Under the pieces are notes generated by a model, which saw only the letters and a list, made by a program, of their open reading frames with translations, did not search any database and was not told the DNA's origin. A stretch of DNA of 64,000 nucleotides from positions 620,001 to 684,000 of the forward strand of contig NZ_JANHDH010000001.1 in NCBI RefSeq assembly GCF_026616195.1. Reading direction: 5' to 3'. This stretch comes from Haloarchaeobius amylolyticus (lineage in GTDB: Archaea; Halobacteriota; Halobacteria; Halobacteriales; Natrialbaceae). Positions 25,651 through 32,224 of this stretch are shown piece by piece. The position numbers were made by a program, and so were the translations under genes. Positions within the stretch are counted from its first letter, which is position 1. Each line of letters opens with the position of its first letter.

Positions 25651-27726
25651 ATGAAGATAAGCTATCGAACGACCGAGAATCCGACGGGAGTGGTCATCAA
25701 GGACCACGTGAAACAGCGGCAAATTAGAATCCTTACCGATACGTCTGTCTCGCCAAGGTCGGGTAACGTTGATTCATTCAGGTACCCTGTCGACGAAGCT
25801 TTCAGTGTAAAAGCGACTAGCTTGACATTGAGCCAGTCTCCCGAAGTCTACCTGCGAAGTACTAACGGGGAAATCGACTGTACTGTCAGAACTCACCGGA
25901 CAATCGAACCGGGCATAGGCGAGTATAGTATGGATTTCAGTGCCCCTGTAAAGCTATACTGGAAATTTGCTGGAAACCCGACGATTTCGAAGGGAATGGA
26001 TTCCATTCAGGTGAGTTTCACCGAAGAGACGACCGTTCAATTCGGGGTCAGGTCCTATCATAAGAAGCCAGCTGGAACGATCACCACGACGGATGACCCA
26101 GAGGACATTATAACGGCAGTCAACGCACTCTCCTCTTCGTTAAAGACAACCTCTTGTGAACGGTCCTATCCAACTTTACGTGGGTACCCGCCTCGTATCA
26201 AATTGGGAGAGTCAGTCGATTTGCCAGCCGGTATAGAGCCGAAGAACACTGGCATTGATATCGTTATTCCCCCAGATTTCAGTTACATCTATGGAGTGTC
26301 GACGTTGGCGTTCTATCTCGGCGCTAAAATCGTAGTCGGTGATAATCCTAGAATTACAACCGGTTCTTTCGAATACGACCTCTCACGTGGAGACTGGTTC
26401 GAAGACGAAGTAGCGGAAGTCCTGAAACAGACGCTGTTTCTGGATTGTATCGTTCGGACTGAAGGGATTTACCAGGTCGATTCGTACGAACGGTCACAGG
26501 TCGAAGCAGACCTTCCGTTTGACGTGGCCGAGATGTACGACCGACCTCTCCCAGCCCAGTTGGAATCTTATTTGAGAATCGATTTCGATACTATCGAACC
26601 ATATCTTCCCAGATGGCCTCTCACGGCACATCTCCCGAGTGAGCCTACCAGTATCGAGGCTATCCCACACATAGTGAACGAGCTTGGAGTGGTACGCGAA
26701 CCGAGAGCCAATTCGACTAGCATCTCTCGAAACGTAGAGACGGTAAAGAGCGAAGGTGTGCGCTCTACCGCTCGCAGTGACAGCAGTAGTAAGGTCTCGA
26801 TGTCGGTCGTTGAGCCGATTCGCCTTGGTGAGTCGATCGAACACGCATGGTTTGCTGATGGAATTCCTCTCGGTGCATCCAAAGCATCGGTAGAATCGTT
26901 CGAGAACCAACTTCGAAACGTCGAACGGAACGAGTCAATCGACATCACGGTCGTTTGCAACGACCCGGAGATGCTGGACGAACAGATGTCCCTGGATGGT
27001 GTTTACGGGGACCGGGAAGACCAACCATACAGCGTCGATTCGTATTTCGGGGTCTCAAAGGACCAACTCCAATACCTCCTGACGGAGGACGGCTGTGACT
27101 TCCTCCACTACATCGGTCACGCCACACCGACAGGACTCCGATGTCCTGATGGTGAACTTGACGTGAGACGATTGGACTCGGTGTCAGTAGATGTGTTCCT
27201 ACTGAACGCCTGTCGCTCGTTCGAACAGGCAGAGGCACTCGTCGAACTGGGGTCATTCGGTGGTGTCGCGACGCTCGGAGACGTAGTCAACACTCACGCA
27301 ATCGATATCGGACAGGCGATTGCCCATCTACTGAACCTTGGGTTCCCTCTTCGGGCAACCGTGGAATTGGTTCACCAGTATACCCAGATGGGTAGCCAGT
27401 ACCTGATTGTTGGTGATGGGTCACTAGACATTGTGCAACCCGAGACAGGCGCACCGATGGTGTGTCATATCGACTCCACCGCAGTCGACGATGAGTACGA
27501 GATCGTACTCGACCTCTTCCCGACGAAGAAATTCCAACTCGGCTCGAGTGTGACACCTGATTTAGATTTCATTGACCAACACTTCATTCATCCCGGTGGA
27601 CTCCCACCGTTCCGTATCAAGCAGCAGCAGTTGAACGACTACCTAACTTGGTCGATGTACCCATTCGAGTTAGAGGGTAGGCTCCACTGGAACAATACGC
27701 TGGGCACAGTCAACCTCTCAGAATGA
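25651..27726 (+). CDS. CHAT-domain (caspase-like) protein, 691 aa
   Basis: I assign the C-terminal third to the CHAT/caspase-like peptidase fold. The segment DFLHYIGHATPTGLRCPDG gives the catalytic His (H490, with H486 before it), and VDVFLLNACRSFEQAEALVELG gives the Cys (C521). After these come GGVATLGDVVNTHAIDIGQAIAHLLNLG and SQYLIVGDGSL, which fit the later strands of the fold. Residues 1-140 are beta-rich with no known domain; 140-400 are unassigned and 345-400 are Ser/Thr-rich and perhaps flexible. No signal peptide or span is seen, so it is cytoplasmic. The gene is clearly AT-richer than glpABC before it. A 45-aa membrane protein gene faces it 31 bases downstream. Substrate and trigger are unknown; a defence or cell-death role is an inference. 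Confidence 0.8.
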   Translation: MKISYRTTENPTGVVIKDHVKQRQIRILTDTSVSPRSGNVDSFRYPVDEAFSVKATSLTLSQSPEVYLRSTNGEIDCTVRTHRTIEPGIGEYSMDFSAPVKLYWKFAGNPTISKGMDSIQVSFTEETTVQFGVRSYHKKPAGTITTTDDPEDIITAVNALSSSLKTTSCERSYPTLRGYPPRIKLGESVDLPAGIEPKNTGIDIVIPPDFSYIYGVSTLAFYLGAKIVVGDNPRITTGSFEYDLSRGDWFEDEVAEVLKQTLFLDCIVRTEGIYQVDSYERSQVEADLPFDVAEMYDRPLPAQLESYLRIDFDTIEPYLPRWPLTAHLPSEPTSIEAIPHIVNELGVVREPRANSTSISRNVETVKSEGVRSTARSDSSSKVSMSVVEPIRLGESIEHAWFADGIPLGASKASVESFENQLRNVERNESIDITVVCNDPEMLDEQMSLDGVYGDREDQPYSVDSYFGVSKDQLQYLLTEDGCDFLHYIGHATPTGLRCPDGELDVRRLDSVSVDVFLLNACRSFEQAEALVELGSFGGVATLGDVVNTHAIDIGQAIAHLLNLGFPLRATVELVHQYTQMGSQYLIVGDGSLDIVQPETGAPMVCHIDSTAVDDEYEIVLDLFPTKKFQLGSSVTPDLDFIDQHFIHPGGLPPFRIKQQQLNDYLTWSMYPFELEGRLHWNNTLGTVNLSE

Positions 27727-27757
27727 AAATCCTACACCGATGTTCTATCGTGTATTG

Positions 27758-27895
27758 TCACGGGCCAGAGGTGGCGCTGTTTCCTGCCACTACGGGACTG
27801 GCCTGCATGAGCAGCAGTCCAATCATGAACAGCACGCCGATCATCCGCGGGTGTTCTGCGAGGTAGTTCGCCAGGGTGTCGTTGTCTTCTTCCAT
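27758..27895 (-). CDS. 45-residue single-span membrane protein paired with the CHAT gene
   Basis: A short frame from ATG 27895 to TGA 27758. The order of parts is an acidic head (MEEDNDTLANYLAEHPRM), one hydrophobic span (IGVLFMIGLLLMQA, about residues 19-32), and a small-residue tail ending ATSGP. The acidic head, the YLAEHPRM segment and the GP ending look conserved and match a family of tiny haloarchaeal proteins I recall near CHAT-type genes (possibly DUF7503; from memory only). It has its own AT-rich promoter region and runs tail to tail with the CHAT gene. The span with a cleavable-looking SPVVAG segment could be a signal anchor or a membrane-active peptide. Whether the CHAT protease acts on it is unknown. 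Confidence 0.75.
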   Translation of the reverse strand: MEEDNDTLANYLAEHPRMIGVLFMIGLLLMQASPVVAGNSATSGP

Positions 27896-27929
27896 GACAA
27901 CAGCACGTTTGGTAGTGAATGACATTAAT

Positions 27930-27955
27930 CTATCTTAAATTTACTTATAAAAAAT
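27930..27955 (-). promoter_or_regulatory. AT-rich promoter of the 45-aa membrane protein gene
   Basis: On the minus strand TTTTTTATAAG and AAATTTAAG are two overlapping TATA-like candidates 35-60 bases upstream of ATG 27895. The rest of 27956-28124 is AT-rich, with no gene seen. Confidence 0.5.
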
Positions 27956-28124: not shown

Positions 28125-29054
28125 TCAGGCGTAGTCGAAGTCCTGGGTCACGTAGTCCACACCGAGGACCAGGAACCCGCCGACGAGCGCGACGATCACG
28201 ATACCTGCGAGCGACTCACCGGAGGACAGGTTCCCTTTGGCCAGTATCTCCTCGAACGGCACCGCGAGGCCGCCGACCATCAGGCTCACGAGGAAGGTCA
28301 GGGTCCCGGCGCGGTAGTTGTCGAGTGCCCAGTCGATGAGCCGGGACATGCTCAGCAGGCCGATGACCATCCCGGTACAGAAGGTGACGACGACCGTCCC
28401 GGACTCGAGCACGGGCTGGAGTTCACCGCCACTCACGAGCGACAGCGACCCGTCGACGAACCGCTTGAGTGTCCCCGTCATGTACTCGTACTGCTGGAGG
28501 ACGACGAGGAAGAACGACCCGGAGACCCCGGGCAGGACCATCGCAGAGACCGCGATGGCGCCCGAGACGAACACGACGGGACTGGAGTGGCCCAGTGCGT
28601 TCTTCGGGAGCAGCGTCACGCTGGCGGCCAGCACGATGCCGACAGTTGCCACCGCGAGCCGGCTCGGTGTCGAGACGTCGACCTCGCGATAGAGGACCAC
28701 CGCGGAGGCCGCGATGAGCCCGAAGAAGAACGCCGCGACCAGCGCGGGGTACTGCTGGATGGCGGAGTGCAGGACCCGCGAGAGGGTGATGACGGCCGTC
28801 GCGATACCCAGTCCGAGGATCACGAGGAACGGCGCGTCGACACGGTAGAAGAGGTCACGGAGGGCCGTCCGCCCGGACTCCTCGTGCACGCGCAGGACGT
28901 GTCTGAGGTCGCGCGGGTCGAACGCGGTGATGGCCTCGATGAGCCGTTCGTAGATACCGGTGATGAGCGCGATGGTACCGCCAGAGACACCGGGGACGGT
29001 GTCGGCCGCGCCCATCATGAATCCCTTCAGGTAGACCGCGAATGACTCACGCAT
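28125..29054 (-). CDS. DUF368 family membrane protein, probable polyprenyl-phosphate translocase
   Basis: A 309-aa membrane protein with eight to ten spans. The N-terminal signature KGFMMGAADTVPGVSGGTIALITGIYERLI and its inverted-repeat partner MVLPGVSGSFFLVVLQQYEYM are the hallmarks of DUF368. In bacteria DUF368 (PopT) and DedA-type UptA proteins were shown to recycle undecaprenyl phosphate across the membrane. Archaea use dolichol phosphate for N-glycosylation, and here the gene sits 47 bases downstream of aglB on the same strand. A role in flipping the dolichyl-phosphate released by AglB back to the cytoplasmic face is therefore a strong inference. Both PGVSGG motifs are intact. Confidence 0.9.
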   Translation of the reverse strand: MRESFAVYLKGFMMGAADTVPGVSGGTIALITGIYERLIEAITAFDPRDLRHVLRVHEESGRTALRDLFYRVDAPFLVILGLGIATAVITLSRVLHSAIQQYPALVAAFFFGLIAASAVVLYREVDVSTPSRLAVATVGIVLAASVTLLPKNALGHSSPVVFVSGAIAVSAMVLPGVSGSFFLVVLQQYEYMTGTLKRFVDGSLSLVSGGELQPVLESGTVVVTFCTGMVIGLLSMSRLIDWALDNYRAGTLTFLVSLMVGGLAVPFEEILAKGNLSSGESLAGIVIVALVGGFLVLGVDYVTQDFDYA

Positions 29055-29101: not shown

Positions 29102-32100
29102 TTAGGCCGCGCGCGCGACTGTTCCGGAATCCGACTGGACCAGACGCGGCTTGTCGTCGTCCGCGCTGGACTCAGAGTCGGTGGCGTTCGCGTCAGTGCT
29201 GATCGAGCTGTTCGTGTTGCCGCCCGAGGCCGAGAGGTCCACGGTGATGGGCTCGCCGTCCTCGGTCATGATGGCCGACTCGGGCACCGCGACGGTTCCG
29301 GTCTCGTTCGAGCCGGCGACCGTGATGGTGTACTCACCGGTGGCCTCGACGGTCGGGTCGCTGGTCCCTTCCTCGACGCTCATCGCGTCGTCGGTCGCAT
29401 ACGGGACCGTGAGCTCGAAGTTGCCCTGGCCGTCGGTCTGGACCGTCTGCGTGTAGTTGAACGTCCGGTTGGTCGTCTGGGACGACAGCTCGACCCTCGC
29501 GGTCACGTTCGTCGCGCTGGAGACGTCCGCCTGGCCGGCGATGGTCGCCCCGGGCACGCGCTCGTAGGTCTTCACGGCCGATTCTATCTGCGTGTCGTAG
29601 ACCTGCACCTGCGGGCTGAACTGGTACTGCAGCAGTTGCTGGACGTTGAACGCCCGGTTGACCGCTGCGGCGCGCCACTGACCCTCCCGGTTGACTGCGA
29701 CCGAGGCGATACCGACGCGCGAGGGGTTCTCGTGCACCAGCCGGTAGTGCTCGAGCCCCTTCGCGTCGTCGTAGTACAGCCGCGAGAGCATCGTCTTCTC
29801 GTACTGCTCGCTCATCCCGGGCAGGACGACCGAGGAGTTGTTGATGTTCACCTGCTTGTTCGTGTAGTAGGTCTGGGGGTTCGGCCCGGTCCAGGTGGCG
29901 ATGGCGCCGAACTTGCTGGTCGCCATCTGGTAGTCGATCATGACGTATCGGGTGTCCTCACCCGCCTGCTGGTCGTTCTGCTGGTCGACGAGACGCTGCA
30001 GGTCCTCGTTCGAGAGCTGGTCGACCGGCTTGTCCGCCTCGCGGATGTTCGGCAGTGCCTCCAGCAGCAGGTTCGCGTGCGTCTCGTTCTGTGCGAGCAG
30101 GTAGTCGGACGCCTCCCGCGCGTTGTGCTGGAACGGGTTGGCGACCGGGATGCGCTCGCCTTTCACCGTAATCCAGTGCCCGTAGTCCCACCAGGACATG
30201 ACGCCGTACGCCCCGTTGGGGTAGGCGAAGTCGTCCTGGTTCTCGTAGGTCGCGTAGTACGGCAGCTCGTTGCTCGCGCCACCGTACTGCCCGGGCTCGG
30301 GCGTGTTCTTCTCCATCCAGTCGGTGCTGTTGTCCCAGAGCATGACCGAGCCGGGACCCATGCTATCCGCCTGTGCGTCGACCGTCGTCGAGGTCATCGC
30401 CAGCACCGGCGTCAGGGGCATCACGACGAGCATGACGACTGCGACGATGGACATCACCTGGTAGGGCTTGATGTCGCTGTAGCTGATGTCTGTCGAGATC
30501 TCCGGAAGGCCGACGACCTGCACGACACGGCCGATGAAGTAGCCGTTCAGGACCGCGACGGTCACGACGAAGTAGTAGTTGAACCGCACCTGTGTCATCG
30601 CCATCAGGAACATGAAGACCGCCCAGACGAGGACGAAGAGGTACTCTGCGCGGTACTCGTCGCTCGAGTAGAGGTCCCAGCCGAGCCAGAGGAAGGCTGC
30701 GGCCGCGACGACGTAGGTCAGTCCATACTGCGCGCCCATGAACTGGGTCATCGTCTGGATGAACGGTTCACCCGCGCCGACGACCGCCTGCGCCTCACCG
30801 ATGGTCAGGGTGGTGTCGCTCTGGGCGAACGCGATCGTTCGGTTGACGTTCCGGATGAGGATACCGAATGCGTCCGGAAGGGCGAGTTTGAGCACCGTCA
30901 GACCCGCGACGAGAATCGAGGAGATAGCGACGGGGTAGTACGCTTTCTTCTCTGCTTTCTCGTCGCGCATGTACGCGACGGCTCCGAAGAGCCCTCCGAA
31001 TACGAGGACGAGCGCGAACGGCAGGCCGAGGAACGGCAGGTCCGCGACTGCCCCCAGGATTATCCCGAGGAACAATAGCCCGAACGCGCCGAGCGACGCG
31101 TTCCGGAGGAGGTCCGTGTCCGTGCTGTCCCAGACGCGAGCGAGCCACGCCATGAACGCACAACCCGCGGCGAGGCCGAGTCCGAGGCCGACTTGGAGGA
31201 ACGAAAGCGACGTTACGGCCAGACCGAATTCGTCGATGCTCAGGAGGACGGTGAATCCAGCAGCCACACCGACGACGATGCCGGTGAACGCCAGGTGGTC
31301 AGGACTCCGACCCGCAAAGTACTCGATAGAGAGTGCGATGGCGAAGAACACCCCGAGGATACCGAGGAGGACCACGGCCGGCGGCCAGACCCACATGTAG
31401 AGGCCTGCGGAGATGCCGGCGAGGGCCGCCCACTTGCCCGGCGTCCGCATCGCGTCCCAGTCACGGTCCGCGACGAGTTCGTAGATAGGCTTCTCGCGCT
31501 CCGCAGAGCGAAGAGCGACCATGATGCCGAGCACGGTGATGGCCTGGAACAGGACCTCGGCGACGTGGTGGTCCGAGAACCCGGCCGTCGAGCGTCGAAG
31601 GAACACACCAGGGAGGAGTGCGAGGACCAGTGCCGCGGTGACACCGGCGAAGCGGCCGGCGAGGCGGCGGCCGATGAAGTACGTCGGAATCGCGACGAGC
31701 ATCCCGAACACGGCCGGTGCGACCAGCAGCGACATCGCGATGGTATGCTGGGAGGGGTCGCCGAGACCCACGATGAGTGCGCCGGTCGCGACGAGCTGGT
31801 CGAACAGCGTCCCGAACTGGTCTGCGCGTACGCCTGTGGGGAACTCGCTGTAGACGTCGTACGGCATCGTCGTCGGCCAGTGCCGAACCGTGTACGAGGT
31901 CTGACGGAGGTGGTACCAGGCGTCGTTACCCGCGTAGAACACCTCCCCGTTTCGTATAAAGTTATCTAGCGGTTGGAGGCGCACCCAGAGCATGAAGGCC
32001 ATAATCAGCCCCACGCCGGGCACGTGATACCAGCGTTTGAAAAGGTCGATGACGGAGTCCGAACTCACCTGCTCGGATTCCGTCTGCTCGCCAGTCGACG

Positions 32101-32107
32101 TGCTCAT
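29102..32107 (-). CDS. aglB: Dolichyl-phosphooligosaccharide-protein glycotransferase (STT3/AglB)
   Basis: Transfers the lipid-linked glycan to Asn in N-x-S/T sequons of exported proteins, on the outer face. I start at ATG 32107 (MSTSTGEQTESEQ), giving 1001 residues; an in-frame start at 32167 would add 20 residues. The N-terminal half has about 13 spans. The catalytic WWDYG motif is at about residues 639-643, as SWWDYGHWITVKGERIPVANP. The soluble C-terminal domain includes the NNSSVVLPGMSEQYEKTML region and ends in a Thr/Ser-rich, extracellular part. It is divergent from the GT2 gene and upstream of DUF368, at the edge of the glycan cluster. Confidence 0.96.
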   Translation of the reverse strand: MSTSTGEQTESEQVSSDSVIDLFKRWYHVPGVGLIMAFMLWVRLQPLDNFIRNGEVFYAGNDAWYHLRQTSYTVRHWPTTMPYDVYSEFPTGVRADQFGTLFDQLVATGALIVGLGDPSQHTIAMSLLVAPAVFGMLVAIPTYFIGRRLAGRFAGVTAALVLALLPGVFLRRSTAGFSDHHVAEVLFQAITVLGIMVALRSAEREKPIYELVADRDWDAMRTPGKWAALAGISAGLYMWVWPPAVVLLGILGVFFAIALSIEYFAGRSPDHLAFTGIVVGVAAGFTVLLSIDEFGLAVTSLSFLQVGLGLGLAAGCAFMAWLARVWDSTDTDLLRNASLGAFGLLFLGIILGAVADLPFLGLPFALVLVFGGLFGAVAYMRDEKAEKKAYYPVAISSILVAGLTVLKLALPDAFGILIRNVNRTIAFAQSDTTLTIGEAQAVVGAGEPFIQTMTQFMGAQYGLTYVVAAAAFLWLGWDLYSSDEYRAEYLFVLVWAVFMFLMAMTQVRFNYYFVVTVAVLNGYFIGRVVQVVGLPEISTDISYSDIKPYQVMSIVAVVMLVVMPLTPVLAMTSTTVDAQADSMGPGSVMLWDNSTDWMEKNTPEPGQYGGASNELPYYATYENQDDFAYPNGAYGVMSWWDYGHWITVKGERIPVANPFQHNAREASDYLLAQNETHANLLLEALPNIREADKPVDQLSNEDLQRLVDQQNDQQAGEDTRYVMIDYQMATSKFGAIATWTGPNPQTYYTNKQVNINNSSVVLPGMSEQYEKTMLSRLYYDDAKGLEHYRLVHENPSRVGIASVAVNREGQWRAAAVNRAFNVQQLLQYQFSPQVQVYDTQIESAVKTYERVPGATIAGQADVSSATNVTARVELSSQTTNRTFNYTQTVQTDGQGNFELTVPYATDDAMSVEEGTSDPTVEATGEYTITVAGSNETGTVAVPESAIMTEDGEPITVDLSASGGNTNSSISTDANATDSESSADDDKPRLVQSDSGTVARAA

Positions 32108-32224
32108 TGTACGGGAAAAGTCTGAAGCGACGAATAAGCCTTGTGTAATCCGTTCATGTGTAGACACCTTCCCGTCACCCGATTTTCAAAACCCTTATTC
32201 GCGCGTCCGTGATTGGTGCGCACA

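Follow-up and report, generated by a model that had tools for sequence, protein, structure and literature searches.

Tail-to-tail pairing of a predicted haloarchaeal CHAT protease with a microprotein gene, and a C-terminal x-G-P recurring among its partners

A gene for a predicted 691-aa CHAT protease and a gene for a 45-aa microprotein of family DUF7503, facing each other tail to tail in Haloarchaeobius amylolyticus, represent a real, conserved two-gene system of the Halobacteriales. Sequence comparison across the loci further indicates that the recurring element of the partner microproteins is the C-terminal x-G-P, and that the hydrophobic span of the 45-aa protein is dispensable. The pair was found in a window comprising the whole analysed stretch of 64,000 nucleotides (contig NZ_JANHDH010000001.1, positions 620,001 to 684,000), in which the following features were located:

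25651..27726, plus strand: CHAT (clan CD) protease gene, 691 aa, assigned by translation, AlphaFold2 (AF2) model, fold matches and invariant alignment columns
27118..27120, plus strand: codon of H490, catalytic by prediction, in the context YIGHA
27211..27213, plus strand: codon of C521, catalytic by prediction, in the context LLNACRS
27758..27895, minus strand: 45-aa microprotein gene, DUF7503 (PF24335), sequence MEEDNDTLANYLAEHPRMIGVLFMIGLLLMQASPVVAGNSATSGP, Pfam E-value 9.2e-20
27761..27784, minus strand: C-terminal tail GNSATSGP, with G44-P45 as the recurring element (alignment, enrichment, free wobble)
27785..27844, minus strand: hydrophobic stretch, residues 18-37, MIGVLFMIGLLLMQASPVVA, best 19-residue hydropathy mean 2.13
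27935..27954, minus strand: AT-rich, TATA-like stretch upstream of the microprotein gene, read directly from the sequence and conserved within the genus; a putative promoter

The stops of the two convergent genes (25651-27726 on the plus strand, 27758-27895 on the minus strand) are separated by 31 nt, exactly as a first-pass annotation of the DNA letters had reported. The 45-aa protein scored 70.4 bits against Pfam PF24335 (cut-off 27), the only family matched and one entered in Pfam as a family of unknown function. An in-frame ATG upstream, at 27925, would yield a 55-aa form, but homologue lengths agree with the start M at 27895. No Rfam element matched at the window locus. The same annotation had proposed an undescribed two-gene system, which holds in that no paper on the pair was found but not for the small gene, already catalogued as DUF7503. 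More broadly, DUF7503, DUF7504 and the haloarchaeal CHAT proteins were named in no paper found by a search that left preprints and most subscription journals outside its range. The window's protein is thus a member of a known Pfam family with no function given, whose link to CHAT and whose unrelated GP-ended counterparts are unmentioned in the sources found.

The 691-aa protein comprises a beta-rich N-terminal part (residues ~1-140), a linker (~164-181), a caspase-like region (~320-600) and a C-terminal part. The linker, LKTTS.ERSYPTLRG.PP in the homologue alignment, is strongly conserved and connects the beta-rich part to the remainder. H490 and C521, pointed out at the outset as a caspase-like dyad, were invariant in 93 homologues, in 67 of a second set, and in each of the 159 CHAT homologues whose gene adjoins that of a partner microprotein, whether this partner was GP-tailed (150) or a DUF7503 protein without GP (9). 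Neither a Pfam nor an NCBIfam model matched the protein, the Pfam CHAT profile PF12770 included; among 24 relatives, three matched PF12770 (best 1.8e-8). A sequence search of solved structures returned only 8tl0, with an E-value of 0.098. The nearest named relatives, ~59% identical, indicate Haloarchaeobius as the probable genus.

An AlphaFold2 model built from a 67-row alignment reached a pLDDT of 89 and a pTM of 0.91. In this model, the catalytic region gave its best Foldseek match to the SAVED-CHAT structure 8tl0 (E 3e-7; Z 18.3, rmsd 2.6 over 171 residues), and residues ~320-600 resembled gingipain R (Z 20.1, about 240 residues), separase (Z 16.7) and Craspase Csx29 (Z ~14), all of which ranked above the legumain and caspase rows. 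By modelled fold and dyad, the 691-aa protein is predicted to belong with the CHAT, separase and gingipain proteases of clan CD. The N-terminal 140 residues were mostly strands in both models, and helical TPR repeats were absent. When the N-terminal 205 residues were folded alone, the model was again beta-rich; a structure search with it gave no convincing fold match: beta-sandwiches of sugar enzymes and YidC reached the best Z, 8.9, which unrelated sandwiches equalled, and no SAVED domain appeared among the matches listed. This part is accordingly unassignable, in agreement with its first description as a beta-rich region of no known family. No signal sequence is visible on the protein. Public records mostly name it hypothetical, otherwise caspase family or CHAT domain-containing, and 25 plasmid records carry the family. 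A viral or phage origin was rejected, no relatives being present in viral contigs or phage records, as was membership in a known defence system (0 PADLOC matches in 24 members). Distant CHAT homologues with a partly kept dyad and no clear GP microprotein also occur in another family of the same phylum (L191-L194, f25).

Among 100 sampled relatives, 89 carried a CHAT homologue and 85 carried DUF7503, which was also found in the control genome, Haloferax volcanii. Across 243 Halobacteriales genomes, CHAT was detected in 220 and DUF7503 in 205, the latter never without a CHAT homologue (205/220 CHAT genomes versus 0/23 CHAT-less ones, P 2e-22, shared ancestry uncorrected). The 100 genomes held 121 DUF7503 copies, of which 107 lay within 2 kb of a listed CHAT match, every one of them convergent (107/107) with a median gap of a few tens of bases. 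Fetching the regions of the other 14 copies added 11 convergent pairs, so that 118 of the 121 copies are tail to tail; the remaining three lie at a contig end (G008), 4.5 kb off (G016) and 32 kb off (G053). The proposal of a pair thereby withstood the checks named with it, for the dyad is conserved, homologues of the small frame exist (85/100) and they adjoin CHAT genes (118/121). Variant arrangements were also seen, including a TnpB-like 423-aa ORF between CHAT and DUF7503 that leaves the pair ~1.5 kb apart (L018/L061, G049), and tandem CHAT genes sharing a single intervening DUF7503 gene, which converges on one CHAT gene and diverges from its neighbour (L096 and the G022, G032 and G034 loci).

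Within DUF7503, each of the 122 aligned rows has a basic residue ahead of the hydrophobic stretch (alignment column 135: R in 110, K in 12), and residues 18-37 are predicted to be a membrane span or a Sec-signal-like segment behind this conserved residue (PR/PK). Small residues occupy positions -3/-1 before the tail (V/A, then A or G in 118/122 rows), and G and P close the tail in 114 and 113 of the 122 rows, respectively. Between congeners, pN/pS of DUF7503 was 0.02-0.16, with 0.16 for the window copy against that of L003.

CHAT genes without a DUF7503 neighbour face other tiny ORFs that end alike. Among 194 non-redundant CHAT genes, 122 face DUF7503 (113 GP-ended), 39 face another GP-ended ORF, a few of which may be chance (e.g., L201), and 33 face none; for four of these 33, a DUF7503 gene lies further away. 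About 29 of the 194 have no GP partner nearby. At CHAT genes, 153 of 964 convergent ORFs ended in GP versus 66 of 14382 ends (0.46%) elsewhere in the same DNA (P ~1e-134), and with the DUF7503 loci removed the figure was still 39 of 354 (P 2e-36). All four codons are in use for both the final Gly and the final Pro, and all three stops occur. As wobble bases and stops are free, selection on the tail therefore acts at the protein level. The GP tail had been mentioned in the first-pass annotation, yet only in passing, and the x-G-P ending proves to be the recurring part.

In a sister CHAT clade, here called type II, a convergent ORF, mostly of 38-60 aa and with a divergent leader, was present in 26 of 30 loci. 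The tails follow the scheme (A)K(R/G)(V/I)STY-x-GP, many of them coming after KR, and the proteins mostly lack an evident hydrophobic span. Over the whole microprotein, pN/pS was 0.14-0.6, a single pair of very close sequences excepted, indicating weaker selection than on DUF7503, as expected if the tail matters most. The type II partner genes have a common TATA-like element, CAATAACTATATA, ~35 nt before the start codon. The window's own genome harbors three CHAT genes, namely the DUF7503-paired gene described above, a type II copy (L208/L238) facing the 30-aa MGQQPTPPDVQRTSGRPRRLDGGSSPYTGP, and a partnerless one (L073). Furthermore, a degenerate DNA pattern for TYGGP-stop, searched in 28 genomes with the reversed pattern as control, was found once in each of 20 genomes, the control giving 0. 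Of these 20 matches, 18 lie beside a type II CHAT gene, one is a DUF7503 end (G010) and one is unlinked (G033), and all are CHAT partners. In G033 the type II partner is kept 77 kb from the CHAT gene, adjoining tbsP; with the DUF7503 gene of G053 (32 kb), it represents a partner kept without linkage, and the link therefore acts in trans.

The partner also changes within the DUF7503 clade. In L156, a Haloplanus MAG whose CHAT lies inside the DUF7503 clade, the partner is the span-less MSDSDSQTVAPTSETEQRIITADGNGGAVSGPYNADGNGGAVSGP, which keeps its relatives' tail and doubles it, although this locus is a single MAG contig with some assembly risk. A same-strand candidate partner in L216 ends in VVTYSGP. 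Along the CHAT tree, the partner type requires 18 steps over 194 tips, i.e., few changes, and the dyad-dead paralogues L199-L203, possible pseudo-proteases, have no credible partner. Where GP is lost, the CHAT residues Y103, T175 and G495 change, in few independent events. Three tandem same-strand CHAT genes without a GP partner were noted at L195:3318-10309. In addition, the end of one CHAT gene is overlapped by a 63-aa ORF (L069:2746-2937) that ends in KKAP, resembles by eye the L071 partner ending in INGP, and may belong to a further partner family. The first-pass annotation had placed the membrane span at the centre, as part of an effector or a tether; in that form the idea is unsupported, given the mostly span-less type II partners and L156, in which the span is replaced and the tail kept and duplicated.

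As to the genomic neighbours, 26 of the 171 loci whose flank was long enough have a same-strand DUF7504 gene immediately before CHAT (L131, L135, L138, L149, L164 and others), and its LLVVG-type start suggests a degenerate RecA/KaiC-like fold. The upstream DUF7504-like protein at L166:4966-5913 has an extra N-terminal stretch and matches the model of DdfA at 3e-15, below that model's cut-off. Haloferax volcanii needs DdfA, a disk-determining factor, for its density response (PMC12240190; described in PMC10869688). The upstream gene at L179:4932-5891 looks like that of L166, and the DUF7503 partners of both loci have lost GP. At the window locus, CHAT has no adjoining DUF7504 gene and its upstream neighbour is glpC, while on the other side the pair is adjoined by genes for a VCA0040/PopT-like polyprenyl-phosphate transporter (28125-29054, minus strand) and an AglB oligosaccharyltransferase (29102-32167, minus strand). 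The regulator beside the unlinked type II microprotein of G033 is the transcriptional regulator TbsP (L248:1852-2682), and similar frames suggest that TbsP may stand beside other type II pairs.

Considering these observations, we propose a two-component proteolytic switch in which the x-G-P tail would control the CHAT protein by docking on it, a reading to which we give about an even chance. The 691-aa protein would be a cytoplasmic CHAT cysteine protease, for which the convergent gene would supply a dedicated microprotein. The GP end is common to otherwise unrelated microproteins, and the tail is thus probably the contact with the protease, on which it would dock by its C-terminal x-G-P. Most likely, the tail would serve as a latch, removable by a signal, that keeps the protease inactive or in position. 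The microprotein's N-terminal part would be an interchangeable module setting location or input, here the putatively membrane-associated helix of DUF7503 and in the type II clade a soluble leader, and the released protease may act on downstream substrates. A control role, likely that of a latch, is favoured because the partner is dedicated, has little else conserved and is kept even when unlinked. Several points tell against the docking of the tail. Nine DUF7503 members have no GP, and neither do the neighbourhoods of the ~29 CHAT genes counted above. Moreover, by the positive-inside rule, DUF7503 should sit N-in/C-out with its tail outside the cell, and the tail would then be hidden from the cytoplasm, which is a difficulty for this reading.

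Alternatively, DUF7503 may be the precursor of a secreted signal, from which signal peptidase would free a GP-ended tail of ~8-12 residues, to be sensed by cells with CHAT as the receptor, in the manner of RRNPP/arbitrium pheromones. The basic residue, the hydrophobic core, the small -3/-1 residues and the short variable tail with a fixed end are all in line with this, as are the lone tiny gene adjoining one cytosolic protein and the upstream gene partly matching the DdfA model at some loci (L166). In addition, the haloarchaeal quorum signals described so far have no chemical assignment (PMC12240190). However, the type II and L156 partners show no evident export signal, an unsystematic look revealed no linked importer or exporter, and the disk-forming signal of Haloferax volcanii withstands proteinase K and is reported as a small molecule. 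We consider a secreted signal unlikely overall. Slightly less probable still is that the microprotein is a substrate, cut by CHAT for instance after the R/K before the hydrophobic stretch to free a membrane-active peptide, with GP as a docking mark. This could explain the R/K in 122/122 DUF7503 rows and the KR preceding many type II tails, and it accords with the nearest folds being the Arg/Lys-cutting gingipains and separase. Likewise, an acidic residue 544, which we aligned to the S1 aspartate of separase, is present in at least 63 of 67 relatives, whereas it is K or Q in 26 of 150 GP-partnered CHATs, so that a P1 specificity read from it is suggestive for the DUF7503-type CHATs only. The invariant basic residue is explained equally well by membrane topology, and the type II and L156 partners have no membrane segment. 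A cleavage-activated membrane effector, as first suggested, thus may apply to DUF7503 alone but gives no account of the whole partner family.

The strict convergence and short gaps might also point to a cis feature, i.e., an antisense overlap or a bidirectional terminator of convergent transcripts in which the reading frame is incidental. Against this stand the low pN/pS of DUF7503, the free wobble bases and stops, the partners kept 32 and 77 kb away, the same-strand candidate of L216 and the lack of an Rfam match, and we regard it as extremely improbable; an antisense RNA or terminator acting at the DNA level was rejected on the free wobble, the pN/pS and the unlinked partners.

The proposed switch is of a known kind in that a CHAT protease has a dedicated partner; what is new is that the class of partner can be told mainly from the tail. 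In the Craspase system, TPR-CHAT (Csx29) likewise has a dedicated partner, Csx30, but the haloarchaeal pair lacks a CRISPR effector and has a far smaller partner, and the protease model shows no TPR part. The SAVED-CHAT or CalpL-type CRISPR-activated proteases (8tl0) are alike in the fold of the catalytic region, whereas the haloarchaeal family has a beta-rich N-terminal part, for which no SAVED domain was among the matches listed, gave no PADLOC match and is near-universal in the sampled haloarchaea. Fold likeness also extends to gingipains R and K (Z ~20 over ~240 residues) and to separase (Z ~16), whose dedicated polypeptide partner, securin, controls it; the partners of the two systems have no sequence relation, and here the partner is a 30-60-aa microprotein with a C-terminal x-G-P. 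RRNPP/arbitrium systems resemble the haloarchaeal pair in that the gene of a single cytosolic protein adjoins a very small one whose product has conserved C-terminal residues. Their receptors have a TPR fold, often with HTH, unlike the caspase-like fold and beta-rich N-terminal part found here, where the partner is a predicted protease, the genes converge, and several microproteins have no export signal; of the features of an exported precursor, DUF7503 looks signal-like and the type II partners do not. Caspase-bacterial gasdermin pairs also place a caspase-like protease beside a membrane-related gene, but the 45-aa DUF7503 is far too small for a gasdermin fold and its sister-clade counterparts are span-less.

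Under the proposed switch, the partner gene would provide a handle on control of the protease, with a mutable two-residue tail, and a functional unit would reside in genes of 30-60 aa that are recognisable by their end alone, the remainder being too variable for homology searches. More speculatively, and rather improbable in our judgement, a private x-G-P C-terminal code may serve as an archaeal switch for signalling or cell fate, coupling a near-universal CHAT protease to interchangeable microproteins that stay inside the cell or are secreted. Measurements in archaea, Haloferax volcanii among them, have shown caspase-like activity, which is strong in H. volcanii, with no caspase gene homologue known (PMC3615174). 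The CHAT family, present in 220 of 243 genomes with an invariant dyad and mostly recorded as 'hypothetical', is a candidate source of that activity, and, if such a code exists, its CHAT protease may be the source of the haloarchaeal caspase-like activity that lacks a gene (PMC3615174).
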